DNA of 64,000 nucleotides from Oscillospiraceae bacterium (GTDB taxonomy: Bacteria; Bacillota; Clostridia; Oscillospirales; Oscillospiraceae): contig JAFRDQ010000086.1 of assembly GCA_017411225.1 (NCBI GenBank), positions 26,603 to 90,602 on the forward strand, read 5' to 3'. The position numbers and the translations under genes were made by a program. A model generated the notes under the pieces. It saw only the letters and a list, made by a program, of their open reading frames with translations, was not told the DNA's origin and searched no databases. This document shows, in pieces, positions 12,017 to 39,176 of this stretch. Within the stretch, counting starts at the first letter, position 1, and each line of letters starts with the position of its first letter.

Positions 12017-12061
12017 AGTATAGCGACGTGGTTTTTTTGCCACAACCTACCCCCGGGGATA
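12017..12061 (-). promoter_or_regulatory. CsoR-box promoter of the S-layer protein gene
   Basis: Reading the minus strand: palindrome TATCCCCGGGGGTA (12048-12061), -35 TTGTGG (12040-12045), 17-bp spacer, -10 TATACT (12017-12022). Site 1 of the twelve-member set. Confidence 0.8.
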
Positions 12062-12110
12062 ATTTTTGATTTTTCAGCAGAATGCAAAAAAAGACAAATC
12101 ATTTTTTGTG

Positions 12111-12150
12111 AAAAACACAGCCCGCTGAAAAACCAGCAGGCTGTGTTTTA
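12111..12150 (-). terminator. Intrinsic terminator of the lipoprotein gene
   Basis: An AAACACAGCC/GGCTGTGTTT stem, extended by CTG/CAG, overlaps the stop codon of the lipoprotein gene; the A/T tails give a U-rich end on the minus strand. Confidence 0.65.
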
Positions 12151-13356
12151 TCCTACGTAAATGGAACCGGAAACACCCAGCTCCACAGCGATTCTGGCAG
12201 GGTCAACGTCCGCGTACCAGTCCGGATAGAGGAGCTTTGCAAAGCACAGCTTGTAATATAGCTGCTGCTCGGGTGTGCCGGCTTCCGCAGCGGACGGCAC
12301 GATAAGGATCCGTCTGTCCGGAAAGCGCGAGAGCAGATTTTCGTATGCGTCAGAGAGCGCGCCGGAGGTGCATTTTACCAGCACGTTCGGATTCTTCTCT
12401 CGTACCCAATCGTCGTCTACCTCGCCGCCGCCCCGGTTTTCCGCCACATTCAGGACCGTTGTTCCGGCAAGCAGAGGGCTGTATCCGGGCGTGATGTGAT
12501 CCGTGTCATATTCCAGATAGGCGGAGACTTTCTGGCAGGCATAGAGAGATTCGTTTGTGTTCTGCAGCACAAACGTCCAGTAGGCGAAGGGGTCATAGGT
12601 CCAGTGGGCATAGAGCGTCTGGTCCGCCTGAACTGTGATGACGGTTTCCGGCGCGATCAGATCTCCGCCGTCCGGCGCCGTGAACCAGCCGTCAAACGCA
12701 TAGCCCGGCTGCGTCGGAGCGGGCAGCGCACCGTAGGCGTCACCCGGATAAATGCTTCGCGTCAGTTCGGAGCGCAGCAGTCTGCCGCCCTGCGGATCGA
12801 GCGAGAGCGTATACGCCTCCATCTGTGACCAGTGGGCATAAAGCGTGTGCGGCTCCGAGAGGGTTACGATCGTGTTTTCGGTGACTCTTGTGCCGCCGTT
12901 TCGGGTGAAGTACCACCCGGTAAAGGCAAATCCCGTGCGCTTTGCGTCCGGCAGGGCACCGTACACGCTGCCAGGCTGCACCTGGACGGCCTCGCGGCCG
13001 CATTCGCCGCCGTTCGGGTCCAGCGTGACAGCGATTTTTTCTTTCTGCTTCTCAATCTGCTCTCCCTGACCGGGCGTGATGATGCTTACGTTGCTCTCCG
13101 GGGTGGTCTGTTTGTCGTCTTTGGAAGGCGAGGAGGGATTATCCGGATTGGGCGAAGTATCCGGTGGTCTGGTCGGCGTTGGCGTCGGCGTGCTTTCCGG
13201 CTCCGGCGTCGGCGTTGGGGAGGGATCGGGCAGGGGCGCCTGCTCCAGCACAATATCTGCGACCGGCCCTTTCAGAATCCGCATCCGGCATCCGGCGAGG
13301 GAGCAGATCAGGCAGGCGGCAAGCAGCGCGGCAGAGAATCGTTTCACCATGCGCAT
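12148..13356 (-). CDS. Lipoprotein with two InlB-type B-repeats and a C-terminal binding-protein-like domain
   Basis: 402 aa. Type II signal peptide with lipobox SLAGC (Cys ~22), then a Pro/Thr/Ser-rich wall-spanning linker (~45-95), two Listeria-Bacteroides-type repeats (~108-178 and ~183-252, each with a GY/GFxFxGWF/Y core and a final LYAHW), and a ~150-residue C-terminal domain. The last domain contains DDWVREKNPNVLVKC, reminiscent of metal/vitamin B12 periplasmic binding proteins, but is too short for a full one. It follows the degenerate CsoR gene by 12 bp and shares its promoter, which suggests a surface role in metal uptake. Function is not established. Confidence 0.7.
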   Translation of the reverse strand: MRMVKRFSAALLAACLICSLAGCRMRILKGPVADIVLEQAPLPDPSPTPTPEPESTPTPTPTRPPDTSPNPDNPSSPSKDDKQTTPESNVSIITPGQGEQIEKQKEKIAVTLDPNGGECGREAVQVQPGSVYGALPDAKRTGFAFTGWYFTRNGGTRVTENTIVTLSEPHTLYAHWSQMEAYTLSLDPQGGRLLRSELTRSIYPGDAYGALPAPTQPGYAFDGWFTAPDGGDLIAPETVITVQADQTLYAHWTYDPFAYWTFVLQNTNESLYACQKVSAYLEYDTDHITPGYSPLLAGTTVLNVAENRGGGEVDDDWVREKNPNVLVKCTSGALSDAYENLLSRFPDRRILIVPSAAEAGTPEQQLYYKLCFAKLLYPDWYADVDPARIAVELGVSGSIYVG

Positions 13357-13368
13357 TTCCTGTGATCC

Positions 13369-13662
13369 TCACTTGGAGAAGTATTTTCTTGCGGTGTAAA
13401 ATGCGTTGTCCAGCCGCTGAGTGTCATGCGATTCGTGCGCCTCCATCAGGGCTTGGTCCATTTCACCGCGCATCAGCTCGTTTGCCGTGGAGGACAGCGC
13501 AGAGCGCACTGCCGCCAGCTGTAGCATGACGCTGGTGAAATCTTCGCCCTCGTCAATCATCTTTTTCACACGAGCGAGATGGCCGAGATTTCGGTTGATG
13601 CGGTGCCTGACAGATTTGGAATAAACCGTGCCGTGCTCTGCCTTTGATTCCTTCTGATCCAA
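13369..13662 (-). CDS. CsoR/RcnR-family regulator lacking the metal ligands
   Basis: 97 aa with a TTG start at 13662, supported by GGAGG eight bases upstream. The DUF156 four-helix core is intact (SVRHRINRNLGHLARVKKMI, then SVMLQLAAVRSALSSTANEL). The cysteine and His/Cys ligands that define CsoR, RcnR and InrS are absent: by comparison with the paralog at 28996-29346 (C62, H87, C91), this protein has F42, E67 and A71. It should still fold and bind DNA but not sense metal in the usual way. It may be a constitutive or heteromeric regulator. It is transcribed from a divergent region with two diverged CsoR-type boxes, which suggests autoregulation. Confidence 0.82.
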   Translation of the reverse strand: MDQKESKAEHGTVYSKSVRHRINRNLGHLARVKKMIDEGEDFTSVMLQLAAVRSALSSTANELMRGEMDQALMEAHESHDTQRLDNAFYTARKYFSK

Positions 13663-13695
13663 ACCGAGCGCCTCCTTCTTTCGGAATTTGACGAC

Positions 13696-13740
13696 ATTAT
13701 AGCCTCCTTTTGTGAGACTTCACAACCTGGGGAGGGGGAT
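13696..13740 (-). promoter_or_regulatory. CsoR-box promoter of the csoR-like/lipoprotein operon
   Basis: Minus strand: diverged palindrome ATCCCCCTCCCCAGG (13726-13740), -35 TTGTGA (13720-13725), 18-bp spacer, perfect -10 TATAAT (13696-13701). Site 2. Confidence 0.75.
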
Positions 13741-13788
13741 GTTTTTTCGGAAAAATAGCTGTGAGAACCAAATTTTGTGCAATTTTAC

Positions 13789-13832
13789 ATCCCCCGCCCC
13801 CGGTTGTGACACCGCTGGGAAAACGCTAAGAT
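13789..13832 (+). promoter_or_regulatory. CsoR-box promoter of the ECF S-component/MoxR operon
   Basis: Box ATCCCCCGCCCCCGG (13789-13803, diverged right half), -35 TTGTGA (13804-13809), 17-bp spacer, -10 TAAGAT (13827-13832). Site 3, back to back with site 2. Confidence 0.75.
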
Positions 13833-13862
13833 AAGTTTATTCCAAGCGGAAGGAGACGGGTT

Positions 13863-14423
13863 ATGAGCAAAATGTCTTCTGTCAGACGATCAACCATCTG
13901 TGCGCTGTGTATCGCCCTCTGCATCGTGCTGCCAGTGGCGTTCCATGCGCTGGGCGTCGGCGCAGTGTTTCTGCCGATGCACATTCCGGTGTTTCTCTGC
14001 GCGCTGACCTGCGGCTGGGGCTATGGGATGTTCTGCGGCATTGCCGGCTGCGTGCTCTCTTCGCTGCTCACGGGCATGCCGACCATCACGGGGCTGCCTG
14101 CCATGGCGGCAGAGCTTGCGATATACGGGCTAATCACCGGCCTGCTGATCCAGATCATCCATACGAAAAATGTCTACGCGGATTTATATCTCTCGGTCGT
14201 TGCCGCGATGATTCTCGGCCGTGTCGCGGCAGGCGTGATCAATGCCCTGATTTTCGCCCGCGGCGTGACCTACAGCCTTGCCATGTGGGCGTCGGCCTAT
14301 CTCTTCACGAGCTGGCCGGGCACCATACTGATTCTCATTGCCGTTCCAGCGCTGATTCTCGCGCTGATGCGCGCCAAGCTCATCCCGGAGCGTTATCCGA
14401 AAGCAGGAGGAAGAAAAGCATGA
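13863..14423 (+). CDS. ECF transporter S component-like membrane protein
   Basis: 186 aa with about six predicted membrane segments and a short charged tail, the size and layout of ECF (energy-coupling factor) S components, which capture a vitamin or metal and pass it to a shared ATPase module. Features such as GMFCGIAGCVLSSLLTGMP and the conserved helix ending RVAAGVINALI fit that class. ATG 13863 follows AAGGAGACGG. No ECF ATPase genes lie in the window, so it would use a housekeeping module. It heads an operon with a methyltransferase and MoxR genes under a CsoR-type box; the substrate is unknown, and a metal chelate is a reasonable guess. Confidence 0.65.
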   Translation: MSKMSSVRRSTICALCIALCIVLPVAFHALGVGAVFLPMHIPVFLCALTCGWGYGMFCGIAGCVLSSLLTGMPTITGLPAMAAELAIYGLITGLLIQIIHTKNVYADLYLSVVAAMILGRVAAGVINALIFARGVTYSLAMWASAYLFTSWPGTILILIAVPALILALMRAKLIPERYPKAGGRKA

Positions 14424-15007
14424 TTGATAAAAATGACGTCATCCGGTTTTTTGACCGCTGTGCCCCGTTTTGGGATGCGGAGATGATACGGAAAGAGGAT
14501 CTGATCTGCGCGATTCTGGATTACGGCGGAGTAACCGCCGGGGCAGACGTGCTGGACGTCGCCTGCGGCACCGGCGTGCTGTTCCCGGACTATCTGGCGC
14601 GGAACGTCGCCTCCGTCACCGGGATCGACATTTCTCCAGAGATGGCGAAGATTGCCGCCTCCAAATATCCGCCCGAGCAGGTGCGCGTCATCTGCGGCGA
14701 TGTGGAGACGGAGATGTTCGACCGGCAGTTTGATGTGGTCATGGTCTATAACGCCTTTCCGCATTTTCCGGATGCGAACGCGCTCATCTCAGCGCTTGCA
14801 AAGGTCACAAAGCCCGGCGGCAGACTCTCTGTTGCGCACAGCATGAGCCGCGCGCAGCTGGATCATCATCACAGCGGCGCCGCGCACCCGATTTCCAACG
14901 GGCTCATGAGCGAGGACGATCTCGCGGCGGTCTTCGCGCCGTATTTCGATGTGGACGTCAAGATCTCGGACGACCGGATGTATCAGGTCTCCGGCGTCAG
15001 AAAGTGA
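14420..15007 (+). CDS. Class I SAM-dependent methyltransferase (1 of 5 in the island)
   Basis: 195 aa, coupled to the S-component gene by an ATGA overlap. Rossmann-fold motifs: motif I VLDVACGTGVLFPDYL (~45-60), motif II VTGIDISPEMAKIA (~66-79), acidic GDVE near 93, motif post-II DVVMVYNAFPHF (~103-114), and KPGGRLSVAH. The histidine cluster AQLDHHHSGAAH (~150) is unusual and could bind a metal. Substrate unknown. Its co-transcription with an S component suggests it acts on the transported compound, which is inference. Confidence 0.75.
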   Translation: MIDKNDVIRFFDRCAPFWDAEMIRKEDLICAILDYGGVTAGADVLDVACGTGVLFPDYLARNVASVTGIDISPEMAKIAASKYPPEQVRVICGDVETEMFDRQFDVVMVYNAFPHFPDANALISALAKVTKPGGRLSVAHSMSRAQLDHHHSGAAHPISNGLMSEDDLAAVFAPYFDVDVKISDDRMYQVSGVRK

Positions 15008-15014
15008 GAGGCAG

Positions 15015-15953: not shown

Positions 15954-15957
15954 AACC

Positions 15958-18212: not shown

Positions 18213-18214
18213 AT

Positions 18215-18452
18215 CAAAGCTGCGGGGAAAGCACAGAATATGCTTTCCCCGCAGCGGTTTTGGAGAGAGTCATGCGATACATGGCATGATCGCACGATAT
18301 ATGAAAGAGACGCAAATGAAGAAGCTCCGATTTGGGAGGGGTGCGGGGAGAACACATTGTGCCTGTCCTCCCCGCAATTTGGAAGGGGGTGTGCAGGCGC
18401 AGACCAAAACGCCTGTACATGGAAGCGAGACTTGAAAGATCAGAAGTTTTAT
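18215..18452 (-). ncRNA. Candidate metal-controlled small RNA, copy 1
   Basis: A promoter with a CsoR-type box (18459-18503) fires leftward but no gene follows before the convergent operon end. The ~238-nt transcript ends at a perfect stem terminator (18219-18255). It shares with copy 2 (20066-20273) a 5' box containing GA(G/T)CTTTCAAGTCTC (minus strand), a hairpin at 18390-18419 with the identical loop TTTTGGTCTG, a second hairpin GCGGGGAG/CTCCCCGC (18343-18350 with 18368-18375), and a TTCTTCATTT box. The first stem differs from copy 2 by paired changes. Reading frames do not align between copies, which argues against a conserved peptide. Confidence 0.65.
18219..18255. terminator. Bidirectional terminator
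   Basis: GCTGCGGGGAAAGCA and TGCTTTCCCCGCAGC form a 15-bp perfect stem with a 7-nt loop; flanked by TTTG on both strands. It ends the MoxR operon (plus) and small RNA copy 1 (minus). Confidence 0.8.
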
Positions 18453-18458
18453 GGTTAA

Positions 18459-18503
18459 AGCTTAGCATAGGAAAAAGAGCCGCACAAGCTACCCCCGGGG
18501 ATG
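18459..18503 (-). promoter_or_regulatory. CsoR-box promoter of small RNA copy 1
   Basis: Minus strand: CATCCCCGGGGGTA (18490-18503), -35 TTGTGC (18482-18487), 17-bp spacer, -10 TAAGCT (18459-18464). Site 4. Divergent from site 5. Confidence 0.8.
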
Positions 18504-18622
18504 TATTTTGAAAAGTATTTTTCCTTGATTTTTCAATGCTTTGCAGCGTTAAAATCAGCCTGAAAATCCTCTATCCCCCCGATACGGAAGCAATCAAAAA
18601 GCGCATGAAAACCTGCAATGGA

Positions 18623-18667
18623 TATCCCCCGGGGTAGCTTGTGGCGGCATTGCCCTTGTGATATGGT
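18623..18667 (+). promoter_or_regulatory. CsoR-box promoter of the MATE gene
   Basis: TATCCCCCGGGGTA (18623-18636), -35 TTGTGG (18639-18644), 17-bp spacer, -10 TATGGT (18662-18667). Site 5. The in-frame ATG at 18663 lies inside the -10, so translation must begin further down. Confidence 0.82.
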
Positions 18668-18701
18668 GGCGCAAGACAACAAAAATGGACGGGGCGAGAA
18701 T

Positions 18702-20054: not shown

Positions 20055-20064
20055 CGCGTATTAC

Positions 20065-20101
20065 AAAAAACACGGCACACAAAATGTGCGCCGTGTTTTT
20101 T
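20065..20101. terminator. Bidirectional intrinsic terminator
   Basis: AAAAAACACGGC on one side and GCCGTGTTTTTT on the other form a stem with one internal mismatch and A/T tails. It ends the MATE gene (plus) and small RNA copy 2 (minus). Confidence 0.8.
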
Positions 20102-20273
20102 GCATATGGATCTGAAGAAGACGAAAATGAAGAAACTCCGAAAGAAAAAGGGCCGCGGGGAGAGTCAGACTGCGTGAACTCTCCCCGCAAAAAAGGGAAG
20201 GGGGGGTGTGCCGGTGCAGACCAAAACACCGACACCATGGAAGGTGAGACTTGAAAGCTCTGAAATACTTGAT
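20066..20273 (-). ncRNA. Candidate metal-controlled small RNA, copy 2
   Basis: About 208 nt from a CsoR-box promoter (20280-20324) to the terminator 20065-20101, with no gene on this strand. Hairpin 1 has stem 20208-20216 with 20227-20235 (GTGCCGGTG and CACCGACAC on the plus strand, one G-U) and loop CAGACCAAAA, identical to copy 1. Hairpin 2 is an 11-bp perfect stem (20155-20165 with 20178-20188). The CTTTCAAGTCTC box and the TTCTTCATTT box are also kept. Compared with copy 1, the stem-1 bases change in pairs, as expected for a conserved RNA structure. Confidence 0.65.
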
Positions 20274-20279: not shown

Positions 20280-20324
20280 AGCTTAGCACACATGGAAATC
20301 CCGCACAAGCTACCCCGGGGGATG
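20280..20324 (-). promoter_or_regulatory. CsoR-box promoter of small RNA copy 2
   Basis: Minus strand: CATCCCCCGGGGTA (20311-20324), -35 TTGTGC (20303-20308), 17-bp spacer, -10 TAAGCT (20280-20285). Site 6. Same -35 and -10 as copy 1. Confidence 0.8.
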
Positions 20325-20445: not shown

Positions 20446-20490
20446 TATCCCCCGGGGCAGCTTGTGGAGGCGGTGCAGGTGTGATATGGT
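20446..20490 (+). promoter_or_regulatory. CsoR-box promoter of the His-rich/C_GCAxxG operon
   Basis: TATCCCCCGGGGCA (20446-20459), -35 TTGTGG (20462-20467), 17-bp spacer, -10 TATGGT (20485-20490). Site 7. The 120-bp stretch between sites 6 and 7 is a diverged copy of that between sites 4 and 5, sharing TTCCTTGATTTTTCAAT and CCCCCCGATACG. Confidence 0.82.
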
Positions 20491-21281: not shown

Positions 21282-21327
21282 TATCCCCGGGGGTAGGTTG
21301 CGAGCGTTTGTCAACATTGTGTATACT
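21282..21327 (+). promoter_or_regulatory. CsoR-box promoter of the first ABC importer operon
   Basis: TATCCCCGGGGGTA (21282-21295), -35 TTGCGA (21298-21303), 18-bp spacer, -10 TATACT (21322-21327). Site 8. Confidence 0.8.
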
Positions 21328-24122: not shown

Positions 24123-24173
24123 TTGTGAACGCAGCAGATGCGCTCATATATAATCTATCATTGGAGGTACGAA

Positions 24174-25787: not shown

Positions 25788-25805
25788 TCGAAATCAAGAA
25801 AACGC

Positions 25806-25839
25806 TTCAGGCCGTCAGACACAGGGCTGGCGGCCTGAA
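25806..25839 (+). promoter_or_regulatory. Intercistronic hairpin after the binding-protein gene
   Basis: TTCAGGCCG (25806-25814) pairs with CGGCCTGAA (25831-25839). No U-run follows. Such hairpins usually stabilise the upstream message so that binding protein exceeds the ATPases. Confidence 0.55.
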
Positions 25840-25853
25840 AACGAGGTGTTGCT

Positions 25854-27820: not shown

Positions 27821-28879
27821 TTATTTCTTCGCGCCGTTCTTCTTGCGAAAGAATCCGCCGAGGAAGCAGATCAGCACCGCAAGGGCGGCGACGATCGCGC
27901 TTCCGACGAGACCGGAGACGGTGGTGCCCGCCGCGCTGTCGCTGTCAGCGAAGGCATAGTCCGGCAGGAATGAGGTCTTCTCCTGAATGGCCGCGGCCTT
28001 GTCCGCCGCGTCGCTCTGCACGCCGTAGTCCTCCTCGTCGAGACCGAGGTTCTGGCTGTAGCCCGCCTCGGCGTTGCCGAACAGGGACCACTCCAGACCG
28101 TCGGGGTTGGAGCTCGCGATCAGGCTCAGACCGCCGCCCACGATGGCAGCGACGATGGCGAGGGAGATGACCGTGGTCTTGAGGGAGTTCTTCTTCTCGG
28201 GAGCGGAGGCGTTCATGTCGCGCAGCAGCTCCGGGCGGCTCTCATAGACAAAGAGCAGCACCGCCGTGGTGATCAGACCCTCAATCAGACCGATGGCCAG
28301 GTGGATCGGCTGCATGATGCTGAGGAACACGCCGAAGGGCAGCTCCGTGATGCCGGAGAGGCTCGTCTCCACGCAGACGGAGAAGGCGCCGAGCTGCAGC
28401 GTAATGACGCAGCCGAGAATGGAGGCAAGGATGATCTTCGCGCGCGCTGCGCCCTTTGCGCCCAAGCCGGAGAACAGGCGGCTTCGCATGATCGGACGCC
28501 AGATCAGATAGTATCCGATGAAGCAGCCGTAGAACGCCATGTTCCAGACGTTCGCGCCGAGGGCAAGTAACCCGCCGTCGGCAAAGAAGAGACATTGAAT
28601 TGCCAGAATGACGATCATCGACAGGAAACCCGCCTGCGGCCCGAGCAGAGCCGAGAGCAGCATACCGCCGCACATGTGGCCCGAAGAGCCGGTGCCGGGA
28701 ATCGTGTAGTTGATCATCTGTCCCGCGAAGACGAGGGCTGCGGTGACGGCCATCACGGGGAGCTTCTGCTCCTCATCGTCTTTACGCAGCTTGTGTACGC
28801 TGACGCCGGCGGTGACGCCGGAGGCCACGTACATGGTGGCGGCTACCGCCGGGGCGAGCAGCGCGTCTGCCATATGCAT
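27821..28879 (-). CDS. CbiM/NikM-type cobalt/nickel permease fused to a PDGLE (CbiN/NikN-like) domain
   Basis: 352 aa. The N-terminus MHMADALLAP holds the family's metal-coordinating His2 and the conserved HMADALL. About seven membrane segments follow, with GTGSSGHMCGGMLLSALLGP (~62-81) as the second metal-binding stretch. From ~235 a further membrane helix and the SSNPDGLEWSL motif form the PDGLE domain, ending in another helix and a basic tail. This is the metal-specific part of a Ni/Co ECF transporter. The T and A subunits (CbiQ, CbiO) are absent from the window, so it must borrow them or work alone. Confidence 0.88.
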   Translation of the reverse strand: MHMADALLAPAVAATMYVASGVTAGVSVHKLRKDDEEQKLPVMAVTAALVFAGQMINYTIPGTGSSGHMCGGMLLSALLGPQAGFLSMIVILAIQCLFFADGGLLALGANVWNMAFYGCFIGYYLIWRPIMRSRLFSGLGAKGAARAKIILASILGCVITLQLGAFSVCVETSLSGITELPFGVFLSIMQPIHLAIGLIEGLITTAVLLFVYESRPELLRDMNASAPEKKNSLKTTVISLAIVAAIVGGGLSLIASSNPDGLEWSLFGNAEAGYSQNLGLDEEDYGVQSDAADKAAAIQEKTSFLPDYAFADSDSAAGTTVSGLVGSAIVAALAVLICFLGGFFRKKNGAKK

Positions 28880-28917: not shown

Positions 28918-28962
28918 ATCCTAATCCATTCGGGCAAGAATCACAAGCTCCCCCCGGGGATG
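28918..28962 (-). promoter_or_regulatory. CsoR-box promoter of cbiM
   Basis: Minus strand: CATCCCCGGGGGGA (28949-28962), -35 TTGTGA (28941-28946), 17-bp spacer, -10 TAGGAT (28918-28923). Site 9. Confidence 0.8.
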
Positions 28963-28995: not shown

Positions 28996-29346
28996 TTATC
29001 TCATATAACGCTCAATGACGGCGTTCAGTTCCTCGAGCGCGTGTGTGTCGTTTTCGCCCACAGCGTCCTTGATGCAGTGCTCAATGTGATCCTTCAGAAT
29101 CACCTTGGCCGTGCTGCTGAGCGCGGACTGAACGGCCGCCAGCTGCATCAGCACCTCCGTGCAGTCGCGGCCGGTCTCCACCATGCGCTTGACGGAGTTT
29201 AAGTGCCCGATCGCGCGGGAGAGCCGGTTGATGACCGACTTGGTCTGCGTGTGGCTGTGGGTGTGCGTGTGCGGATGCTCCTCGAGGTGGTCGTGGGAAT
29301 GGTACGTTCCGTCCTCGTGCATGTGAAAGCCTCTCGGTTCGCTCAT
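28996..29346 (-). CDS. CsoR/RcnR/InrS-family metal-sensing repressor with His-rich N-terminus
   Basis: 116 aa from ATG 29346, overlapping the methyltransferase stop. Residues 8-32 hold eleven histidines (HMHEDG, HSHDH, HPHTHTHSH). The DUF156 core follows with the expected ligands C62 (TGRDCTEV), H87 and C91 (DHIEHC). Family members are all-helical tetramers that leave G/C-tract operators when Cu, Ni or Co binds. The boxes in this island match that operator type, so this protein is the best candidate regulator. Being last in an operon with its own type of box upstream (31736-31749) suggests autoregulation. The His tract favours nickel or cobalt. Confidence 0.88.
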   Translation of the reverse strand: MSEPRGFHMHEDGTYHSHDHLEEHPHTHTHSHTQTKSVINRLSRAIGHLNSVKRMVETGRDCTEVLMQLAAVQSALSSTAKVILKDHIEHCIKDAVGENDTHALEELNAVIERYMR

Positions 29347-29955: not shown

Positions 29956-30744
29956 TCAGGGGACTGCCGGGTGAACGGCGTGCACGAGAAACATCGGCGT
30001 GGAGGCGAAGTTTACCTTCTCCTCTGCCGACCAGACGCGGCTCCATGCCTCCGTATCCGTCGTCACGTGCAGACCGAGCTTTGAGAGCACGCTGTGATCC
30101 CAGGCCGGACGTGCCGCGCGGGAGAGGGGAATGCGCATGGCGATGCGCTCCATCTGATCGAAGTTCTCTCCGATGTTCTCGTCATGGATCCCCTGCTCCG
30201 CCGTGGCTTTGCGATCGGCGTCATAGCCCTCGCGCGCAGCGTTGTCAAACAGGTAGTGATACCAGTTGGCGTCGAAGTTCAGCAGCATGCCGCCGGGGCG
30301 AAGCACGCGCTTCCACTCCTGATAGGCCGTCTCCGGATGGGGGAGATTCCATGTGAGGTTGCGGGATAGAATCACGTCAAAGCTCCCGTTCGGAAAGGAG
30401 AGCGCTTCGGCGTTCATCTCCAGAAACGTGATCTTCTCCGCGAGCGCGCCGGCGTTCTTTTTCGCCTCTGCGAGCATGGCGGGCGTGAGATCAATCGCCG
30501 TCACGTCATATCCCAGCTCTGCAAGCAGAATCGCGAAGAAGCCCGGCCCCGTGCCGATCTCCAGAACCTGTACGCTCCCTGCCTCACGGTCGGGAAACTG
30601 CCGGGCAATGTGCGCTCTCAGCTCCTCGCGCCAGACCTCGCGCTGCGAGGTGCGAAGCTCTGTCTGGTTCACTTTGGAATAGCCGTCAGCGCGGCCGGTC
30701 CAGTATTCCCGGTTTTCACTCAGAATCGTTTTGCCGGATGCCAT
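29956..30744 (-). CDS. Class I SAM-dependent methyltransferase (4 of 5)
   Basis: 262 aa. Motif I VLEIGTGPGFFAILLA (~59-74), motif II VTAIDLTPAMLAEA (~80-93), MNAEALSFPNGSFDVI (~108-123), then SRNLTWNLPHPETAY and LRPGGMLLNFDANWY. The RNLTWNLPHP...NFDA pattern is shared with 39211-39948 (RNLTWTLPHL...NFDADY), so those two form a subfamily. It starts inside the deacylase gene (29-bp overlap, other frame). The C-terminal ~90 residues are longer than in the other copies and may shape the substrate site. Confidence 0.77.
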   Translation of the reverse strand: MASGKTILSENREYWTGRADGYSKVNQTELRTSQREVWREELRAHIARQFPDREAGSVQVLEIGTGPGFFAILLAELGYDVTAIDLTPAMLAEAKKNAGALAEKITFLEMNAEALSFPNGSFDVILSRNLTWNLPHPETAYQEWKRVLRPGGMLLNFDANWYHYLFDNAAREGYDADRKATAEQGIHDENIGENFDQMERIAMRIPLSRAARPAWDHSVLSKLGLHVTTDTEAWSRVWSAEEKVNFASTPMFLVHAVHPAVP

Positions 30745-31704: not shown

Positions 31705-31749
31705 ATCCTAACACGGTAAGCAGGGGCTCACAACCTACCCCGGGGGATA
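31705..31749 (-). promoter_or_regulatory. CsoR-box promoter of the deacylase-methyltransferase-repressor operon
   Basis: Minus strand: TATCCCCCGGGGTA (31736-31749), -35 TTGTGA (31728-31733), 17-bp spacer, -10 TAGGAT (31705-31710). Site 10. Confidence 0.82.
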
Positions 31750-31784
31750 AAAAATTGCACAAAAATGCAGAAAGTTTGAAAAAA

Positions 31785-31829
31785 TATCCCCCGGGGTAGG
31801 TTGTGCGAGCGGATTGGCAGTGCTATAAA
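31785..31829 (+). promoter_or_regulatory. CsoR-box promoter of the second ABC importer operon
   Basis: TATCCCCCGGGGTA (31785-31798), -35 TTGTGC (31801-31806), 17-bp spacer, -10 TATAAA (31824-31829). Site 11, only 35 bp from the divergent site 10. Confidence 0.84.
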
Positions 31830-31864
31830 AGTAAGACGAAACTAACAAATCAGGAGGTGTGCCG

Positions 31865-32806
31865 ATGGGCAAATATGTGCTTCGCAGAATCGTGCAGCTG
31901 ATCCCGGTGCTGATCGGTATCACGTTTTTGTCCTTCGCCATGATGCGCATCGCCGGCAGCGACGCCATCACGGAGATGTACGGCAACAAGGGCGGCGTGG
32001 ATCAGGCAATCATTGACGCGGCGCGCGCCGATCTCGGCCTCGATAAGCCCTTTTTGACGCAGTATTTCTCGTGGCTCGGCGGTATGCTCACTGGCGACAT
32101 GGGCACGAGCTACATCTCCGGGCGCAACGTGTTCGATACCTTCGTCTCCAAGCTTCCTGCGACGCTGCTGCTCACAGCGCTTTCTATTTTATTGACCATC
32201 ATCATCTCCATCCCGCTCGGGGTGCTGGCTGCGGTGCGGCACGATCGGTTCACGGACTATCTCATCCGCTTCTGCAGCTTTGTCGGAAACTCGCTGCCCA
32301 ATTTCTTCGTGGCCATGCTCCTCATGTATTTTCTCAGCATCAAGCTCGGCTGGCTGCCGGTCATTTCAAACGGCTTGAGCCTCAAGAGCGCCGCCATGCC
32401 GACGCTCACGCTCGCCATCGCCATGAGCGCGAAGTACCTCCGCCAGGTGCGCGCCACGGTCTTGGAGGAGCTCAATAAGGACTATGTCTACGGCGCACAG
32501 GCCAGAGGCGTGCGCGGCAGAGTTACGCTGTGGAAAAGCGTCATGAAGTCCTCCATGCTCACGATCATTACACTTTTGGCGCTCTCCATCGGAAGCCTCC
32601 TCGGCGGTACGGCGATTATCGAGTCCATCTTCATGTGGGACGGCGTCGGCAAGCTCGCCGTGGACGCCATCACCATGCGCGACTATCCGATCATTCAGGC
32701 ATACGTCGTCTGGATGGCGATCATCTATGTCCTCGTGAACCTCATCACCGATCTGCTGTATCACGCCATGGACCCGCGTATCAGACTGGGGGTGGTGCAG
32801 GATTGA
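31865..32806 (+). CDS. Nickel/peptide ABC transporter permease (NikB type), importer 2
   Basis: 313 aa from ATG 31865, seven bases after AGGAGG; a GTG six bases earlier is too close to that site. Six membrane segments with the B-type landmarks RRIVQLIPVLIGITFLSFAM at the N-terminus, then LGLDKPFLTQYFSWLGGM (~58-75), and EAA loop GAQARGVRGRVTLWKSVMKS (~210-229). Importer 2 is the more Nik/Cnt-like of the two systems, with short ATPases. The stop overlaps the next start (TTGA). Confidence 0.88.
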   Translation: MGKYVLRRIVQLIPVLIGITFLSFAMMRIAGSDAITEMYGNKGGVDQAIIDAARADLGLDKPFLTQYFSWLGGMLTGDMGTSYISGRNVFDTFVSKLPATLLLTALSILLTIIISIPLGVLAAVRHDRFTDYLIRFCSFVGNSLPNFFVAMLLMYFLSIKLGWLPVISNGLSLKSAAMPTLTLAIAMSAKYLRQVRATVLEELNKDYVYGAQARGVRGRVTLWKSVMKSSMLTIITLLALSIGSLLGGTAIIESIFMWDGVGKLAVDAITMRDYPIIQAYVVWMAIIYVLVNLITDLLYHAMDPRIRLGVVQD

Positions 32807-33666
32807 ACAAGGAACCGACTGTCCGCGTGCAGAAGCTGCGCCGCGATACCCTCAAGGCCAGACTCATCGTTTTCGGCACGCTTGCGATCCTGCTCCTGCT
32901 CGCGTCCGTCTTCTGCGAGCAGCTCTGCCCCTACGATCCCTATGCGCAGGATCTTTCCATCGCCAAGATGGCCCCCAGTGCTGAGCATGTCTTCGGCACC
33001 GACCGCTACGGCCGCGATATGCTCTCGCGCGTCATCGTCGGCGCGAAGACCAGCATCTTTTCCACCCTGCTGCTCGTCGCCATCATCACCGTCATTGGCA
33101 CGATCGTTGGCGTTTTCGCCGCTTGGGTCGGCGGCTGGACGGATACGATCCTCATGCGCATCTCCGACCTCTTCCTCGCGTTCCCCGGCCTCGTCTTTGC
33201 GCTGGCCGTGGCGGGCGTGCTCGGAGGCGGCCTGCACAACGCGATCATCGCGCTGGCTGCCATCTCATGGCCGAAGTTTGCGCGTATCGCCCGCAGTCAG
33301 ACGCTCGCGCAAAAGGAGATGCCCTATTTCCGTGCGGCAAAGCTCGCAGGCGGCAGCTCCATGAAGATCATTGTGAAGCACGTTCTCCCCAACATCATGG
33401 GCCCGATTCTGGTGACCTCCATGCTGGACATCGGCACCATGATGATGGAGCTTGCGGGTCTCTCGTTCCTCGGCCTCGGCGCCAAGCCGCCCGCCGCCGA
33501 GTGGGGCAGCATGATCAGTGATACCCGCGGTCTGCTGCAGACCGCCCCGTGGCTCACGTTCGCGCCCGGTCTCGCCATCTTCGTCTCCGTCATGATCTTC
33601 AATCTGCTGGGCGATACCGTCAGAGATTATCTCGACCCCAAGATGAGAAAGGGGGCGCGCGCATGA
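32803..33666 (+). CDS. Nickel/peptide ABC transporter permease (NikC type), importer 2
   Basis: 287 aa with a TTG start at 32803 overlapping the NikB stop; GGGGGTGG lies just upstream and the resulting N-terminus fits the family. Landmark FGTDRYGRDMLSRVIVGAK (~65-83), five to six membrane segments, EAA loop AAKLAGGSSMKIIVKHVLPN (~178-197), and LSFLGLGAKPPAAEWG. It forms the channel with the NikB subunit. Its own stop overlaps the next ATG, so all genes of this operon are translationally linked. Confidence 0.87.
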   Translation: MNKEPTVRVQKLRRDTLKARLIVFGTLAILLLLASVFCEQLCPYDPYAQDLSIAKMAPSAEHVFGTDRYGRDMLSRVIVGAKTSIFSTLLLVAIITVIGTIVGVFAAWVGGWTDTILMRISDLFLAFPGLVFALAVAGVLGGGLHNAIIALAAISWPKFARIARSQTLAQKEMPYFRAAKLAGGSSMKIIVKHVLPNIMGPILVTSMLDIGTMMMELAGLSFLGLGAKPPAAEWGSMISDTRGLLQTAPWLTFAPGLAIFVSVMIFNLLGDTVRDYLDPKMRKGARA

Positions 33667-34460
33667 GCAAGCTTCTGGAATATGACCGCGTAGAGATCTC
33701 CTACAACGGCAAGCCTGCCGTGCAGGACATCTCCGTCGATCTCGCCGAGGGCGAAATTCTCGGCATCGTCGGCGAATCCGGCAGCGGCAAGAGTACACTC
33801 ATCAAAGCCGCCATGGGGCTGCTTGGCCCCGCCGGCATGGTCACAAGAGGCGATATCTGGTACAAGGGCAAGGATCTTCCCGATCTGAAGCCCGCCGAGA
33901 TCCGCAAGCTCTGCGGCCCGGACTTCGGAATGATCTTCCAGAGCGCCGGCGCCAGCTTCTGCCCAATCCGCACGGTCGGTGCCCAGCTCTACGAGAGCGT
34001 CATCGAGCATGAAAAGATCACAAAAGCGGAATTTGAGGACCGCGCGTCTGAGATTCTCAGCAAGATTGGTTTCCTCGATCCGGTGCGCGTCCTCAAAAGC
34101 TATCCCTTCGAACTCTCCGGCGGCATGCAGCAGCGCGTCGGCATCGCGTCGGCCATGCTTCTGCGCCCGAGCGTGCTCATGGCCGACGAGCCGACCAGCG
34201 CGCTGGACGTCCACGTTCAGAAGCAGGTCGTGGAGGAGATGATGCTCATGCGCAAGGAGTACGGCGTCAGCATCATCATCGTCACGCACAACATCGGCGT
34301 CGTCGGCGCCATGGCGGACAACGTCCTCGTCATGCAGAAGGGCCGCGCCGTCGAGTACGGCGAGACCGACAAGATTCTCAACCACCCGGAGACGGAGTAT
34401 ACCAAAACGCTGATGGCCGCCGTGCCGCGGCTGGAGAGGGGAGGCGCGAAACATGGCTGA
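33663..34460 (+). CDS. ABC transporter ATPase (NikD type), importer 2
   Basis: 265 aa. Walker A GESGSGKST (~36-44), Q-loop FQSAGASFCPIRTV (~93), signature LSGGMQQRVGIASAM (~147-161), Walker B VLMADEPTSALDV (~167-179), H-loop VTHN. At 265 residues it lacks the long oligopeptide-type tail, as NikD and CntD do. It overlaps both neighbours by a few bases. It provides one of the two nucleotide-binding subunits of importer 2. Confidence 0.87.
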   Translation: MSKLLEYDRVEISYNGKPAVQDISVDLAEGEILGIVGESGSGKSTLIKAAMGLLGPAGMVTRGDIWYKGKDLPDLKPAEIRKLCGPDFGMIFQSAGASFCPIRTVGAQLYESVIEHEKITKAEFEDRASEILSKIGFLDPVRVLKSYPFELSGGMQQRVGIASAMLLRPSVLMADEPTSALDVHVQKQVVEEMMLMRKEYGVSIIIVTHNIGVVGAMADNVLVMQKGRAVEYGETDKILNHPETEYTKTLMAAVPRLERGGAKHG

Positions 34461-35214
34461 ACCGATCCTGTCCATCCAGAAGCTGACCAAAACCTTCAAG
34501 CTTCAGGGCAGGGAGGACGTCCACGCCGTGAAGGACGCCACCTTTGATCTCATGCCCGGCGAGTGCCTCGGCGTCATCGGCGAGAGCGGCAGCGGCAAGA
34601 CCACGCTCGTGAACATGATCACGGGTCTGCTTCCTGCCACCTCTGGCAGCGTCACGGTCGACGGTCTGGAAGTGACCAAGTGCAAGGGAAAGGATCTGCG
34701 CAAGGCATGGAAGAAGATGCAGGTCGTCTTCCAGACGCCGACGGAGTCCTTCGACCCCCGCCGTACGCTGGGCGACGGCATCTGCGAGAGTATGCGCAAC
34801 AACGGCGTCTCCAAGGCCGAGGCGCTGAAACGCGCGGAGGAGCTGCTCGAGCTCTGCGGCCTGCCGAAGGAGTTTGTGGGGCGCTATCCCCACGAGGTCA
34901 GCGGCGGTCAGTGCCAGAGAGCCGCGATCGCCCGAGCCCTTGCCATCGAACCGAAGCTCCTGATCTGTGACGAGGCGACGAGTGCGCTCGACGTCACCAT
35001 TCAGGCGGAGATCATCGAGCTGCTGACGGAGCTTCGCCGGAAGCTCGATATGTCCATCCTCTTCATCTGCCACGACATCGCGCTCGTGCAGCAGTTCTGC
35101 GACCGGCTGGTCGTCATGTACCGCGGCCAGATTGTGGAGCAGGGCGTCCCCTCCGAGGTTATCGCCGCGCCGAAGAACGGTTACACGCGAAACCTCATCA
35201 ACAGCATTCTTTAA
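34453..35214 (+). CDS. ABC transporter ATPase (NikE type), importer 2
   Basis: 253 aa. Walker A GESGSGKTT (~41-49), Q-loop FQTPTESFDPRRTL (~96), signature VSGGQCQRAAIARAL (~143-157), with an uncommon cysteine inside the signature (GGQCQR rather than GGQRQR), Walker B LLICDEATSALDV, H-loop ICHD. Overlaps the NikD-type gene by 8 bp. The binding-protein gene follows after 63 bp, the reverse of the classic nikABCDE order. Confidence 0.87.
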   Translation: MAEPILSIQKLTKTFKLQGREDVHAVKDATFDLMPGECLGVIGESGSGKTTLVNMITGLLPATSGSVTVDGLEVTKCKGKDLRKAWKKMQVVFQTPTESFDPRRTLGDGICESMRNNGVSKAEALKRAEELLELCGLPKEFVGRYPHEVSGGQCQRAAIARALAIEPKLLICDEATSALDVTIQAEIIELLTELRRKLDMSILFICHDIALVQQFCDRLVVMYRGQIVEQGVPSEVIAAPKNGYTRNLINSIL

Positions 35215-35277
35215 TCTGCATTCCGATTTCATCGGTGCAAATAAAACAACAAAGGACAGAAAGAAAGGAATCCACGT

Positions 35278-36870
35278 ATGAACAAGAGAATTCTTTCCAT
35301 GCTGCTCGTCGTTGTGCTGGCCCTCGGCCTGCTCGCCGGCTGCGGCAGCAAAGAGCAGAGCGCACCCGCCGGCAGCGAGGAAGCTGCCGCCCCCGCGGAC
35401 GCCAAGACCATGATCATCGGCGATACGACCTTCAACAGTGAAAACTGGGAAGAGACCGTCGACCCCCACACCACCTACAACGGCTGGCCCTGCATTCGCT
35501 ACGGCATCGGCGAGACGCTCGTGCACTACACCGACACCATGGAGCTGGAGCCCTGGCTCGCTACCGCATGGGAGAATGACGGCGACTGCACCTGGACCAT
35601 CACCCTGCGCGACGGCGTGAAGTTCTCCTCCGGCCGCGACATGGATGCCGCTGCTGTCAAGCAGTGCTTCGAGCACCTGCTCGAGGTCCACGACCGCGCT
35701 CCTGCCGACACCAAGATTGAGTCCATCGAGGCTGACGGCATGACCCTGACCATCAAGACCAGCGAGCCCAACCCCGCTCTGATGAACTACCTCGGCGACC
35801 CCTACGGCTGCATCATCGATGTGGACGCTACCGATTTTGACAAGGGCATCGCCGTCGGCACCGGCCCCTACGTCGTGAAGGACATGGTCACGGATGACCA
35901 CGTCACCCTCGTTCCCAACGAGCTCTACTGGGGCGGCCTCACGAACACCCAGCCGAAGCTCGATGAGCTCACCATCAAGACCATCTCCAACGGCGACACC
36001 CTCTCCTCCGCGCTGCAGGCGGGCGACATTGACGCCGCCTACGGCATGGCTTACGAGGCTTATCCGAACTTCGAGAACGACAACTACCAGTTCTCCAGCA
36101 TCCAGACCTCCCGCGCCTTCTTCGGCTCCATGAACATGACCAGCCCTGTCATCCAGGACCCCGCTGTCCGCAAGGCCATGGCCATGGGCATCGACAAGCA
36201 GGGCTTCGTTGACACGCTGCTGGACGGCCACGGTGTTGTGGGCAACGGCGCGTTCCCGGACGGCTTCTCCACCTTCGGCGGCGATAAGGTCAAGACCGAG
36301 GGTTATGATCCCGAAGCTGCTGCCAAGCTCCTGGAGGAGGCCGGCTGGGTCGACTCTGACGGCGACGGCATCCGCGAGAAGGACGGCACCAAGCTCGTCA
36401 TCCGCTGGCTGACCTATCCCAGCCGTCAGGAGCTCCCGCTGCTGGCGGAAGCTGCCCAGGCGGACCTGAAGAAGATCGGCATGGAAGTCGATATCAACTG
36501 CACCGCCAACCGCCGCGAGTTCCTGGCCGACATGACCAGCTGGGACGTCTACGCCTCCGCGCTGGTGACCGCCCCCTCCGGCGATCCGCAGTACTTCTTC
36601 ACCACCAGCTGCCTGCCCGGCCAGAGCTACAACTTCGGCGCTTATGAGAACGAAGAGGTCAATGCGCTCATGGAGCAGCTCGCCACCGAGTTCGATACCG
36701 CCAAGCGCGGTGAGCTCGCCGTTCAGCTCCAGCAGAAGATTCTGGACGACAACGCCTATCTCTTCTGCTCCTTCCTGCAGATGAACATGATCTCCAAGGC
36801 GAATGTGACTGGTTACACCGCCCACGCCTGCGACTACTATCAGGTCACTGCCGATCTGGACATTGCCTGA
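35278..36870 (+). CDS. Solute-binding lipoprotein (SBP_bac_5, NikA/CntA-like), importer 2
   Basis: 530 aa. Lipobox LLAGCGS (Cys ~22), Ala/Pro/Glu-rich linker, then the family fold: TLRDGVKFSSGRDMDAAAVK (~112-131), GTGPYVVKDMV (~195-205), SPVIQDPAVRKAMAMGID (~290-307) and GFSTFGGD. The NikA-like spacing and importer type suggest nickel-chelate or metallophore capture. Position last among the transporter genes and before a stem-loop (36890-36918) suits a highly made binding protein. Codon choice is strongly biased to C-ending codons, consistent with high expression. Confidence 0.86.
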   Translation: MNKRILSMLLVVVLALGLLAGCGSKEQSAPAGSEEAAAPADAKTMIIGDTTFNSENWEETVDPHTTYNGWPCIRYGIGETLVHYTDTMELEPWLATAWENDGDCTWTITLRDGVKFSSGRDMDAAAVKQCFEHLLEVHDRAPADTKIESIEADGMTLTIKTSEPNPALMNYLGDPYGCIIDVDATDFDKGIAVGTGPYVVKDMVTDDHVTLVPNELYWGGLTNTQPKLDELTIKTISNGDTLSSALQAGDIDAAYGMAYEAYPNFENDNYQFSSIQTSRAFFGSMNMTSPVIQDPAVRKAMAMGIDKQGFVDTLLDGHGVVGNGAFPDGFSTFGGDKVKTEGYDPEAAAKLLEEAGWVDSDGDGIREKDGTKLVIRWLTYPSRQELPLLAEAAQADLKKIGMEVDINCTANRREFLADMTSWDVYASALVTAPSGDPQYFFTTSCLPGQSYNFGAYENEEVNALMEQLATEFDTAKRGELAVQLQQKILDDNAYLFCSFLQMNMISKANVTGYTAHACDYYQVTADLDIA

Positions 36871-36889
36871 TCCATCCCGCAAAACAGCC

Positions 36890-36918
36890 GGGGGTGCTGC
36901 AAAACACGCAGCACCCCC
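36890..36918 (+). terminator. Attenuator between the importer 2 binding protein and the HMA gene
   Basis: GGGGGTGCTGC (36890-36900) and GCAGCACCCCC (36908-36918) form an 11-bp perfect stem followed by ATTTTC. Partial termination would make the HMA/ATPase pair less abundant than the importer. Confidence 0.65.
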
Positions 36919-36942
36919 ATTTTCAACATCAGGAGGAAAACC

Positions 36943-37161
36943 CTGAAGAAAACGGATGAGATCGAAGTGGACTGCGCCAACTGCGCCAACAAGATGGAGG
37001 GCGCCGCGAACAAGACCCCCGGCGTGCAGAAGGCTGTCGTGAACTATATGGCGCAGAAGATGGTCGTGGAGTTCGACGAAGGCGCCGATCCCAAGGCCGT
37101 CATGCCCGAGGTTCTGAAAAACTGCAAAAAGGTCGAAGACGACTGCGAGATTTATCTCTGA
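36943..37161 (+). CDS. Stand-alone heavy-metal-associated (HMA) domain protein
   Basis: 72 aa. There is no ATG or GTG in a suitable place; a CTG at 36943, six bases after AGGAGG, gives a full HMA domain (LKKTDEIEVDCANCANKMEG), so I infer a rare CTG start. The metal-binding motif is DCANCANKM with the two cysteines of CxxC; the rest predicts the ferredoxin-like fold and ends with KKVEDDCEIYL, adding one more cysteine. It sits 1 bp before the P-type ATPase, which lacks an N-terminal HMA domain, so it looks like the split-off metal chaperone of that pump. Confidence 0.78.
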   Translation: MKKTDEIEVDCANCANKMEGAANKTPGVQKAVVNYMAQKMVVEFDEGADPKAVMPEVLKNCKKVEDDCEIYL

Positions 37162-37162
37162 T

Positions 37163-39130
37163 ATGACAAAGAAGCAAAAAAAGATGCTGCGGCGCATTCT
37201 CATCGCCGCAGCGCTGATGATCGTACTGCACTTCGCCGTGGAGCTCCTCGGCGAGAAGGTGCACGAGCCGATCTGGTTTCTCCTGTATCTGATCCCGTAC
37301 TATATCGTCGGCAACGACATCCTGCTGAAAGCCTGGAAGGGCATTCGCAACGGGCAGGTCTTTGACGAGAACTTTCTCATGGCCGTCGCCACCATCGGCG
37401 CCATCGCCATTGCGCTCATCAGCCGCAGCGGCGATTATACCGAGGCCATCGCGGTCATGCTCTTTTATCAGGTGGGCGAGCTGTTCCAGAGCTATGCCGT
37501 CGGCAAGAGCCGAAAGAACATCGGCGCGCTCATGGACATCCGCCCGGACTATGCCAACATTGAACGCGACGGCGCGCTGGAGCGCGTCGATCCCGACGAG
37601 GTTTCCGTCGGCACGGTCATTGTCGTACAGCCCGGCGAGAAGGTGCCCATCGACGGCACTGTCATCGAGGGCGTCAGCGCGCTCGATACCAGCGCCCTCA
37701 CCGGTGAGAGCGTCCCGCGTACCGTGCACGAAAACGACGACGTGGTCAGCGGCTGCATCAACCTCTCCGGTGTTCTGAAGCTGCGCACCACGAAGGAATT
37801 CGGCGAATCCACCGCGGCGAAGATTCTCGACCTCGTGGAGAACGCCACCTCCCGCAAAGCCAAGAGCGAGAACTTCATCTCCCGCTTTGCGCGGTACTAT
37901 ACGCCCATTGTCTGCTATTGCGCCCTGGCGCTGGCGGTGCTGCCGCCGGTGGTGCGGCTCATCGGCGGCTCTGCCGCCAACTGGGGCGACTGGATCTACC
38001 GCGCCTTGACCTTCCTCGTCATCAGCTGCCCCTGCGCGCTGGTCATCAGCATTCCGCTGAGCTTCTTCGCGGGCATCGGCGGGGCGAGCCACGAGGGCAT
38101 CCTTGTCAAGGGCTCCAACTATCTGGAGGCGCTCTCCAAGACGAAAACGGTTGCCTTTGACAAGACCGGCACCATGACCCACGGCGTCTTTGAGGTGAAC
38201 GGCATCCACCACAGCAGTATGGAAAATGACAAGTTGCTCGAGCTCGCCGCCCACGCGGAGATTGCCTCCTCGCACCCGATCGCCAGAAGCATCCAGAAGG
38301 CCTATCTGGAGGGCCTCACCTGGCAGGACGACGGCGAGATCGCGCCGAAGCCGGCGGATCTGGCTTTGCGAAAGCTGGACCGCAGCCGCGTGACGGAGCT
38401 GGAGGAGATCGGCGGTCACGGCATCGTGGCGAAGATCGACGGCAGAACCGTCGCCGTCGGCAACGCCAAGCTGATGGAGCAGTTGGGTGTGCAGTACATT
38501 GACTGCCACCATGTCGGCACCATCGTTCATATGGCCATCGACGGCGCTTACGCCGGCCACATTCTGATCTCCGACGTTGTAAAGCCCACGGCGAAGGAGG
38601 CCATCCGCGCTCTGCATGATGCAGGCGTCGCGCGCACCGTCATGCTCACGGGCGACGCGCAGAAGGTTGGCGAGGCGGTCGCGTCGCAGCTCGGCATCGA
38701 CGAGGCGCGCTGTGAGCTGCTGCCGGCGGATAAGGTCTCGGCAGTGGAGGAACTGCTGCGCTCTAAGCCGGAGGGATCCATCCTCGCCTTCGTGGGCGAC
38801 GGTATCAACGACGCGCCGGTGCTGGCTCGCGCGGACGTGGGCATCGCCATGGGCGCCCTCGGCGCGGACGCGGCCATCGAGGCGGCGGACGTCGTGCTCA
38901 TGGACGACGACCCGAAGAAGATCCCGCTGGCCATCCGCATTGCGAAGAAGTGCATGCGCATCGTCTATGAAAACATCTGGTTTGCCATCGGCGTCAAGGT
39001 GCTCTGCCTGATCCTCGGCGCGTTCGGCATCGCGAGCATGTGGCTCGCCATCTTCGCGGACGTCGGCGTCATGGTCATCGCCGTCCTGAACGCGATCCGC
39101 GCGCTTTTCACCAAACATCTGCATGCCTGA
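37163..39130 (+). CDS. P1B-type heavy-metal-transporting ATPase (CadA/ZntA-like)
   Basis: 655 aa. Eight membrane segments with the metal-binding SCPCAL in helix 6 (C289, C291), the phosphorylation motif DKTGT (D333), actuator LTGESVPR (~182), the HP locus ASSHPIARS (~373) and hinge VGDGINDAPVLARADVGIAMG (~560-580). The CPC motif with a following lysine-type helix is typical of Zn/Cd/Pb exporters (P1B-2), but a few move nickel or cobalt. It has no attached HMA domain; that is the separate gene before it. Being co-transcribed with an importer is unusual. Confidence 0.87.
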   Translation: MTKKQKKMLRRILIAAALMIVLHFAVELLGEKVHEPIWFLLYLIPYYIVGNDILLKAWKGIRNGQVFDENFLMAVATIGAIAIALISRSGDYTEAIAVMLFYQVGELFQSYAVGKSRKNIGALMDIRPDYANIERDGALERVDPDEVSVGTVIVVQPGEKVPIDGTVIEGVSALDTSALTGESVPRTVHENDDVVSGCINLSGVLKLRTTKEFGESTAAKILDLVENATSRKAKSENFISRFARYYTPIVCYCALALAVLPPVVRLIGGSAANWGDWIYRALTFLVISCPCALVISIPLSFFAGIGGASHEGILVKGSNYLEALSKTKTVAFDKTGTMTHGVFEVNGIHHSSMENDKLLELAAHAEIASSHPIARSIQKAYLEGLTWQDDGEIAPKPADLALRKLDRSRVTELEEIGGHGIVAKIDGRTVAVGNAKLMEQLGVQYIDCHHVGTIVHMAIDGAYAGHILISDVVKPTAKEAIRALHDAGVARTVMLTGDAQKVGEAVASQLGIDEARCELLPADKVSAVEELLRSKPEGSILAFVGDGINDAPVLARADVGIAMGALGADAAIEAADVVLMDDDPKKIPLAIRIAKKCMRIVYENIWFAIGVKVLCLILGAFGIASMWLAIFADVGVMVIAVLNAIRALFTKHLHA

Positions 39131-39131
39131 A

Positions 39132-39176
39132 TATCCCCCACCGGGGGTTGCGGAAACCGACGTTTCGTCGTAAAAT
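39132..39176 (+). promoter_or_regulatory. CsoR-box promoter of methyltransferase 5
   Basis: TATCCCCCACCGGGGG (39132-39147, two extra central bases), -35 TTGCGG (39148-39153), 17-bp spacer, -10 TAAAAT (39171-39176). Site 12. It starts directly after the ATPase stop codon. Confidence 0.78.

Follow-up and report, generated by a model that had tools for sequence, protein, structure and literature searches.

A candidate nickel/cobalt acquisition regulon under an InrS-like CsoR protein, with two putative small RNAs, in an Oscillospiraceae bacterium

Which protein reads a G/C-tract box that recurs ahead of twelve promoters in a metal-transport island, and does it turn these promoters on or off? The question is raised by a stretch of 64,000 nucleotides from an Oscillospiraceae bacterium (GCA_017411225.1, contig JAFRDQ010000086.1, positions 26,603 to 90,602), referred to here as the window, which is part of a 90.6-kb contig in a 2.1-Mb metagenome-assembled genome of 82.6% completeness. 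An earlier note on this DNA had proposed that twelve identically built promoters form a single metal regulon under a CsoR-family protein. We arrived at a reading in which the protein CsoR1 governs a regulon for nickel/cobalt acquisition, with activation by the metal-free form, release by nickel or cobalt, and small RNAs among the products; we regard the chances for and against this reading as evenly balanced. The coordinates of the features are collected in Table 1.

All twelve sites were located at the places given in the note. Each composite promoter comprises a fixed 21-bp block, YATCCCC-N8-[GC]TTG[TC]G, a spacer, and a -10 element. The spacer is 17 bp long in ten composites and 18 bp in the other two (13696 and 21282), and the -35 element is TTGTG or TTGCG throughout, as the note had stated. 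When the sites were aligned on the -35 element, ATCCCC at -15 to -10, G at -2, and TTG-G at 0 to 4 were invariant in 12/12, while the right-hand G half of the box was variable and, in two one-sided sites, C-rich. The term "identically built palindromes" therefore suits nine sites. It does not suit the 39132 box, which reads ATCCCCCACCGGGGG and deviates from the palindrome that had been given, or the divergent pair 13696/13788, a one-sided C-tract lacking the G half.

The composite is specific to the island. A search for the 21-mer with up to three mismatches yielded 9 matches in the window, and the composite with a 17-bp spacer yielded 10, versus none in 100 shuffles in either case. In the whole genome, the same 21-mer scan found 11 sites, of which the island holds 9 and contig C146 holds 2, and a looser composite scan found 13 (11 and 2, respectively), with no match in the reversed controls. 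Thus, the proposed confinement to the island held over the assembled part of the genome, the two sites on C146 being the exception. This contig (G000:C146, L255; 6041 bases) repeats part of the island in diverged form, with the His-rich gene, a small RNA, a CsoR gene whose product is 68% identical, a methyltransferase gene, and NikB; it may be a paralogous island or come from a co-binned relative. When palindromes were searched for without any promoter constraint, 49 were obtained, 42 of which had a promoter score of at least 7; the distance from the palindrome centre to the -35 element was 7 or 9 bases in 18 of these 42, a result to be read with the facts that 11/49 rows come from the window or the near-identical L027 and that several true sites were assigned another promoter.

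The box is not restricted to this genome. The composite was present in 82/200 genomes of the taxonomic family, with 166 matches as opposed to 12 in the reversed control. There are 13 matches in the window's genome, another 13 in its sister G005, and 12 in G012, which belongs to a different genus; the other carriers have 1 to 5. The closest named relative found, Ruminococcaceae bacterium RUG10603 (L027), encodes a CsoR1 of 98% identity and carries the same boxes, and other named carriers include Oscillospiraceae, Cellulosilyticum, Clostridium sp. E02, and Anaerocolumna. Inspection by eye of 29 boxed loci of relatives (L120-L148) showed that, in 18, the gene after the box resembles a csoR, CbiM, CbiO-like ATPase, Nik or solute-binding, methyltransferase, or MATE (multidrug and toxic compound extrusion) gene; in the remaining 11 it is of another kind, such as rpsB, and the G half is poor in most of these. 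Of the 200 genomes, 60 have the box together with an InrS-like CsoR gene (E <= 1e-20), 22 have the box alone, 23 the gene alone, and 95 neither (odds ratio 11.3, Fisher p = 2e-14, with related genomes not being independent). In addition, a strict composite lies directly upstream of 12/105 distinct csoR-like genes, one of which is a CsoR2 homologue in L082, compared with none in the reversed control. Co-occurrence, position upstream of csoR genes, and gene content in relatives bear out the proposed regulon to this extent, and a single metal regulon under a CsoR-family protein appears well supported at the level of sequence.

The two CsoR-family proteins previously assigned to the island, CsoR1 and CsoR2, both score above the cut-off of PF02583 (Trns_repr_metal), and neither reaches that of any NCBIfam model. 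Among solved structures, the best matches of CsoR1 are 6ahx and InrS, and all four nickel ligands of InrS (His21, Cys53, His78, and Cys82; ligand set from PMC7055735 and PMC4235346) are aligned in CsoR1. The gene csoR1 sits inside one of the boxed operons, and its product is the likely reader of the box. CsoR2 differs from InrS at three of these positions, namely, Cys53 to Phe, His78 to Glu, and Cys82 to Ala. A homologue in G002 (also L082) with 49% identity likewise lacks both cysteines but keeps the histidine. In both the window's genome and G002/L082, csoR2 faces a gene for the S component of an energy-coupling factor (ECF) transporter across two one-sided C-tract boxes.

The position of the box within the promoter bears on the sign of regulation. 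At class II activator promoters, the activator site is centred near -41.5 and the -35 element is weak or degenerate. In the island, the box centre lies 8.5 bp ahead of the first -35 base, which would place it about -43 to -44 from the predicted transcription start. The -35 elements match TTGACA at 3 to 4 of 6 positions, with neither A at position 4 nor C at position 5 in any of the 12, and the four boxed promoters between 18100 and 20700 all escaped a consensus promoter scan of that interval. With a predicted site at about -43.5 and a degenerate -35 element, the island promoters are laid out like class II ones. A different layout was seen at presumed copper-type csoR genes, which were present in 6/8 stretches inspected, including one in this genome; "copper-type" is our own label for genes whose products have no His-rich tail and a weaker likeness to CsoR1. 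At 6/6 of these loci, a perfect TTGACA is followed by a spacer filled by AATACCCCNNNGGGGTA and then by the -10 element, which is a repressor layout. The operator lies between the -35 and -10 elements of a consensus promoter at all six presumed copper-type loci versus none of the 12 island promoters. A pattern search for the spacer-operator layout behind TTGACA was positive in 34/200 genomes, with 0 in the control. NreA of Mesorhizobium and copper-type CsoR promoters share with the island TA-flanked G/C-tract operators (TATCC...GGATA; TACCCCNNNGGGGTA), but those operators fill the -35/-10 spacer, whereas the island box is upstream of the -35 element (PMC12724321). Since this genome's presumed copper-type CsoR differs from CsoR1 and has a classical promoter of its own, we rejected the idea that the island is a copper regulon.

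Profile searches indicated that the genes of the regulon are mostly importers, including CbiM and two Nik/Opp-type systems. Activation is favoured because the box precedes a non-consensus -35 element, the genes are mostly for uptake, and the presumed copper-type promoters are built differently; geometry and gene content together suggest that CsoR1 is probably an activator here. An enhancing effect of InrS on nik import genes has been reported (PMC7055735). Binding by CsoR1, the sign of its action, and the identity of the metal are what we infer from these features, and the mechanism would be as follows. Metal-free CsoR1 would bind the G/C-tract box and recruit RNA polymerase to an intrinsically weak promoter, whose -35 element TTG[TC]G lacks the consensus ACA. 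Nickel or cobalt entering the His/Cys/His/Cys site would then cause CsoR1 to let go, and uptake would drop. The small RNAs described below would act beside the uptake genes, their C-rich stretch and 5' box pairing with mRNAs in a metal-sparing response.

The foremost competitor of activation is ordinary derepression, in which metal-free CsoR1 would repress all twelve promoters by obstructing polymerase at the -35 element and metal excess would induce them, making the island a regulon for metal excess. Known CsoR, RcnR, and NreA proteins act in this way (PMC7055735, PMC12724321), and a P-type ATPase and a MATE transporter belong to the set, yet most of the genes encode importers, the operator does not lie in the spacer as it does at the six presumed copper-type loci, and a -35 element this poor would presumably make repression hardly needed. 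We consider derepression unlikely, although it deserves more weight than the other alternatives. Somewhat less probable still is an inverted, NikR-like allostery, in which metal-loaded CsoR1 would be the DNA-binding form and would shut off uptake at high metal. It would give the right sign for importers without any activation, in a genus in which NikR was found in 0/10 genomes (the same search was positive in 5/14 controls), a result that also led us to reject regulation by NikR itself. However, the CsoR-family nickel sensors reviewed in PMC7055735 all lose DNA upon metal binding, and CsoR1 retains the ligand set of InrS.

Several observations weigh against activation by CsoR1. The regulon includes genes that look like exporters, i.e., the heavy-metal P-type ATPase and the MATE transporter, and an extended -10 element (TGn) is present in only 6/12 promoters. 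Typical targets of CsoR, RcnR, and InrS are efflux genes that are repressed and then released by metal (PMC7055735). As to the reader, the genome holds further CsoR genes (five CsoR-family matches in all), the composite was not found in the 5 kb examined at the CsoR gene of 64% identity on contig C43, and 93/105 csoR-like genes have no strict box upstream. Finally, the target patterns of the small RNAs yielded no common theme.

No conserved gene lies in the gaps that the boxes at 18459(-) and 20280(-) face. The note had the boxes heading every operon of the island, but these two head no protein operon; downstream of them we identified two putative small RNAs, T1 and T2. The RNAs are about 210-240 nucleotides (nt) long and structured, and T1 and T2 are homologous, with 73% identity over 179 nt. 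Boxed copies are found in 5/10 genomes of the genus, nine in total: the window has two, C146 has one, G005 and G007 have two each, and G008 and G009 have one each, that of G009 without the first hairpin. The conserved parts are a 5' box, GANCUUUCAAG[UA]CUC, and a C-rich stretch that is unpaired; hairpins separate the two and also follow them. Five copies were folded, giving z values from -2.85 to -4.62. In hairpin 1, three positions are changed on both sides among T1, T2, and the C146 copy, with one mismatch in T1; in hairpin 2, one G-C pair has become A-T in G007a and G008. Pairing is thus kept through two-sided changes at these positions; it was read from the loop outward, since MAFFT aligned the hairpins poorly. 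Terminator-like hairpins were seen by eye after the RNAs, and a terminator scan gave 6 sites versus 2.7 in shuffles, a modest excess. Outside the genus, the 5' box had five hits in 391 genomes (L162-L166) versus 1 in the control, none of them with a promoter box, and one-mismatch hits within the genus (L149, L151, and L161) have no promoter box either. An unboxed copy was also noticed at L155 (G009:C10), where the 5' box, the C-rich stretch, and a terminator-like hairpin directly follow a gene that by eye looks hsp20-like; it is perhaps a 3'-end-derived version of the RNA.

With a promoter and a terminator of their own, a conserved unpaired stretch, and no conserved reading frame, T1 and T2 fit the layout of trans-acting small RNAs, and both their transcription and their function are predicted. 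That they are instead small-protein messages or by-products of divergent promoters seems quite improbable to us. Open frames of 72-101 codons do exist, but T1 and T2 do not share the same frames, and even among the T1 copies of sister genomes the frames shift; no ribosome-binding site was seen ahead of candidate starts, and the best-conserved parts are the unpaired 5' box and C-rich stretch; a coding reading was rejected for want of conserved frames. A known RNA family was likewise rejected. No Rfam 15 family reached its gathering score anywhere in the window, and a permissive scan returned five weak matches below their cut-offs, those to STnc320, ylbH, and FsrA (E 0.08-0.77) overlapping the end of T2 and falling far short of the cut-offs; the best likeness to FsrA scored 23.4 bits versus a cut-off of 80. 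FsrA has C-rich unpaired patches. For the complement of the C-rich stretch ahead of ATG, 37 sites were found versus 3 in the reversed control, with a pattern that resembles an ordinary Shine-Dalgarno site, so we propose no target from them. Of these sites, 30 were turned into loci, 24 with an open reading frame of at least 60 residues, two pairs being the same gene and one being nikD2 of the island. The complement of the 5' box with at most one mismatch was found at the three RNA loci and three other sites versus 4 in the control, i.e., nothing above chance.

Small RNAs under a metal sensor are known, including FsrA/RyhB (Fur), NikS (NikR), and s-SodF (Nur) (PMC9294342), and their likeness suggests a metal-sparing role for T1 and T2, which differ from them in being driven by a CsoR-type box. 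No CsoR-controlled small RNA was found in the literature searched, from which subscription journals were mostly absent, so this is weak evidence of absence; "csor" occurs 0 times in the review of metal-responsive small RNAs (PMC9294342). The same search, with the same limit, found no CsoR-controlled nickel/cobalt acquisition regulon in Firmicutes. A CsoR copper meta-regulon of gut Firmicutes (PMC4938975) likewise places genes of related gut bacteria under CsoR-family control, but it consists mainly of csoR and copA, and the island mostly of importers and methyltransferases. The system closest to CsoR1, InrS of Synechocystis, belongs to the CsoR/RcnR family and shares the four ligand positions; compared with it, the island has many promoters of one fixed layout, a Firmicute host, a pair of putative small RNAs, and a paralogue poor in ligands. 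The two small RNAs, the ligand loss of CsoR2, and the second operator class go beyond the earlier note.

The least probable alternative, that a DNA-binding protein outside the CsoR family reads the box, can appeal to a box that is compact relative to published type 2 CsoR operators (PMC3902906) and to the 22/82 composite-bearing genomes without InrS-like CsoR at the above threshold, but against it stand the co-occurrence of box and CsoR, the box position upstream of csoR genes, the resemblance to the NreA operator TATCC...GGATA (PMC12724321), and the chance matches of the composite pattern (12 in the reversed control versus 166).

Table 1. Coordinates of composite promoters, putative RNAs, and genes of the island
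Feature	Position	Strand	Remarks
Composite promoter	12017..12061	-	heads gene with SLH (S-layer homology)/5'-nucleotidase domains
Composite promoter	13696..13741	-	one-sided C-tract box (CCCCCTCCCC); 18-bp spacer; heads csoR2
Composite promoter	13788..13832	+	one-sided C-tract box (CCCCCGCCCCC); heads operon of ECF S component, methyltransferase, MoxR-type ATPase
Composite promoter	18459..18503	-	heads T1
Composite promoter	18623..18667	+	heads MATE transporter gene
Composite promoter	20280..20324	-	heads T2
Composite promoter	20446..20490	+	heads His-rich small protein and C_GCAxxG_C_C protein
Composite promoter	21282..21327	+	18-bp spacer; heads small open reading frame, methyltransferase, Nik/Opp-type ABC (ATP-binding cassette) importer
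Composite promoter	28918..28962	-	heads cbiM
Composite promoter	31705..31749	-	heads operon of aspartoacylase-like protein, two methyltransferases, csoR1
Composite promoter	31785..31829	+	heads second Nik-type ABC importer and heavy-metal P-type ATPase
Composite promoter	39132..39176	+	ATCCCCCACCGGGGG variant; heads methyltransferase
Putative small RNA T1, about 230 nt	18219..18452	-	start inferred from -10, end from terminator-like hairpin
Putative small RNA T2, about 210 nt	20063..20273	-	ends inferred as for T1
CsoR1, InrS-like CsoR-family regulator	28996..29346	-	PF02583; all four InrS ligand positions
CsoR2, CsoR family	13369..13662	-	PF02583; without X (Cys), Y (His), and Z (Cys) metal ligands
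CbiM-PDGLE cobalt/nickel ECF component	27821..28879	-	domain search
Nik/Opp-type ABC importer operon	22225-27754 (importer)	+	behind 21282 box; small open reading frame and methyltransferase ahead
Second Nik-type ABC importer and heavy-metal P-type ATPase	31859-39130	+	behind 31785 box
His-rich protein, 95 residues	20518-20805	+	behind box; no Pfam match; homologue on C146
Open reading frame, 51 residues	21342-21497	+	directly behind 21282 box
Class I methyltransferase genes (five)	14423-15004, 21599-22225, 29343-29939, 29956-30744, 39190-39945		domain search

Because the 12017 box heads the SLH/5'-nucleotidase-domain gene at 9827-11983(-), we place the start of the island near 9.8 kb. None of the four island methyltransferases scanned, of the five present, reached an NCBIfam cut-off. 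The His-rich protein is a possible metal chaperone, and the 51-residue product is, we assume, reminiscent of DUF2292/YezD-like small proteins. Elsewhere in the window, a 997-residue protein (5943-8936, +) gave a weak match, yet above the cut-off, to the RNA-dependent RNA polymerase family PF05183 (E 5e-8); it contains a GADYDGD motif and has no NCBIfam match.

Taken together, these features suggest a wider proposal, which we put forward tentatively and hold at somewhat less than an even chance. A metal-free InrS-like CsoR may be dedicated to activating an entire nickel/cobalt acquisition regulon in the class II manner and may command a genus-restricted family of metal-sparing small RNAs. A conserved CsoR paralogue poor in ligands would work alongside it and would go with a second class of operator, the one-sided one, and the place of the operator in the promoter would set the sign of a CsoR-type sensor within one cell. 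If this is true, one protein family in one bacterium would use two layouts, a spacer operator that silences copper-type genes and an upstream operator that activates uptake, and it would become directly testable how uptake can be controlled by a sensor that leaves DNA when it binds metal. It would also add a natural ligand-poor CsoR, together with a family of small RNAs controlled by a metal sensor in gut-type Firmicutes, in a genus where NikR was not found.

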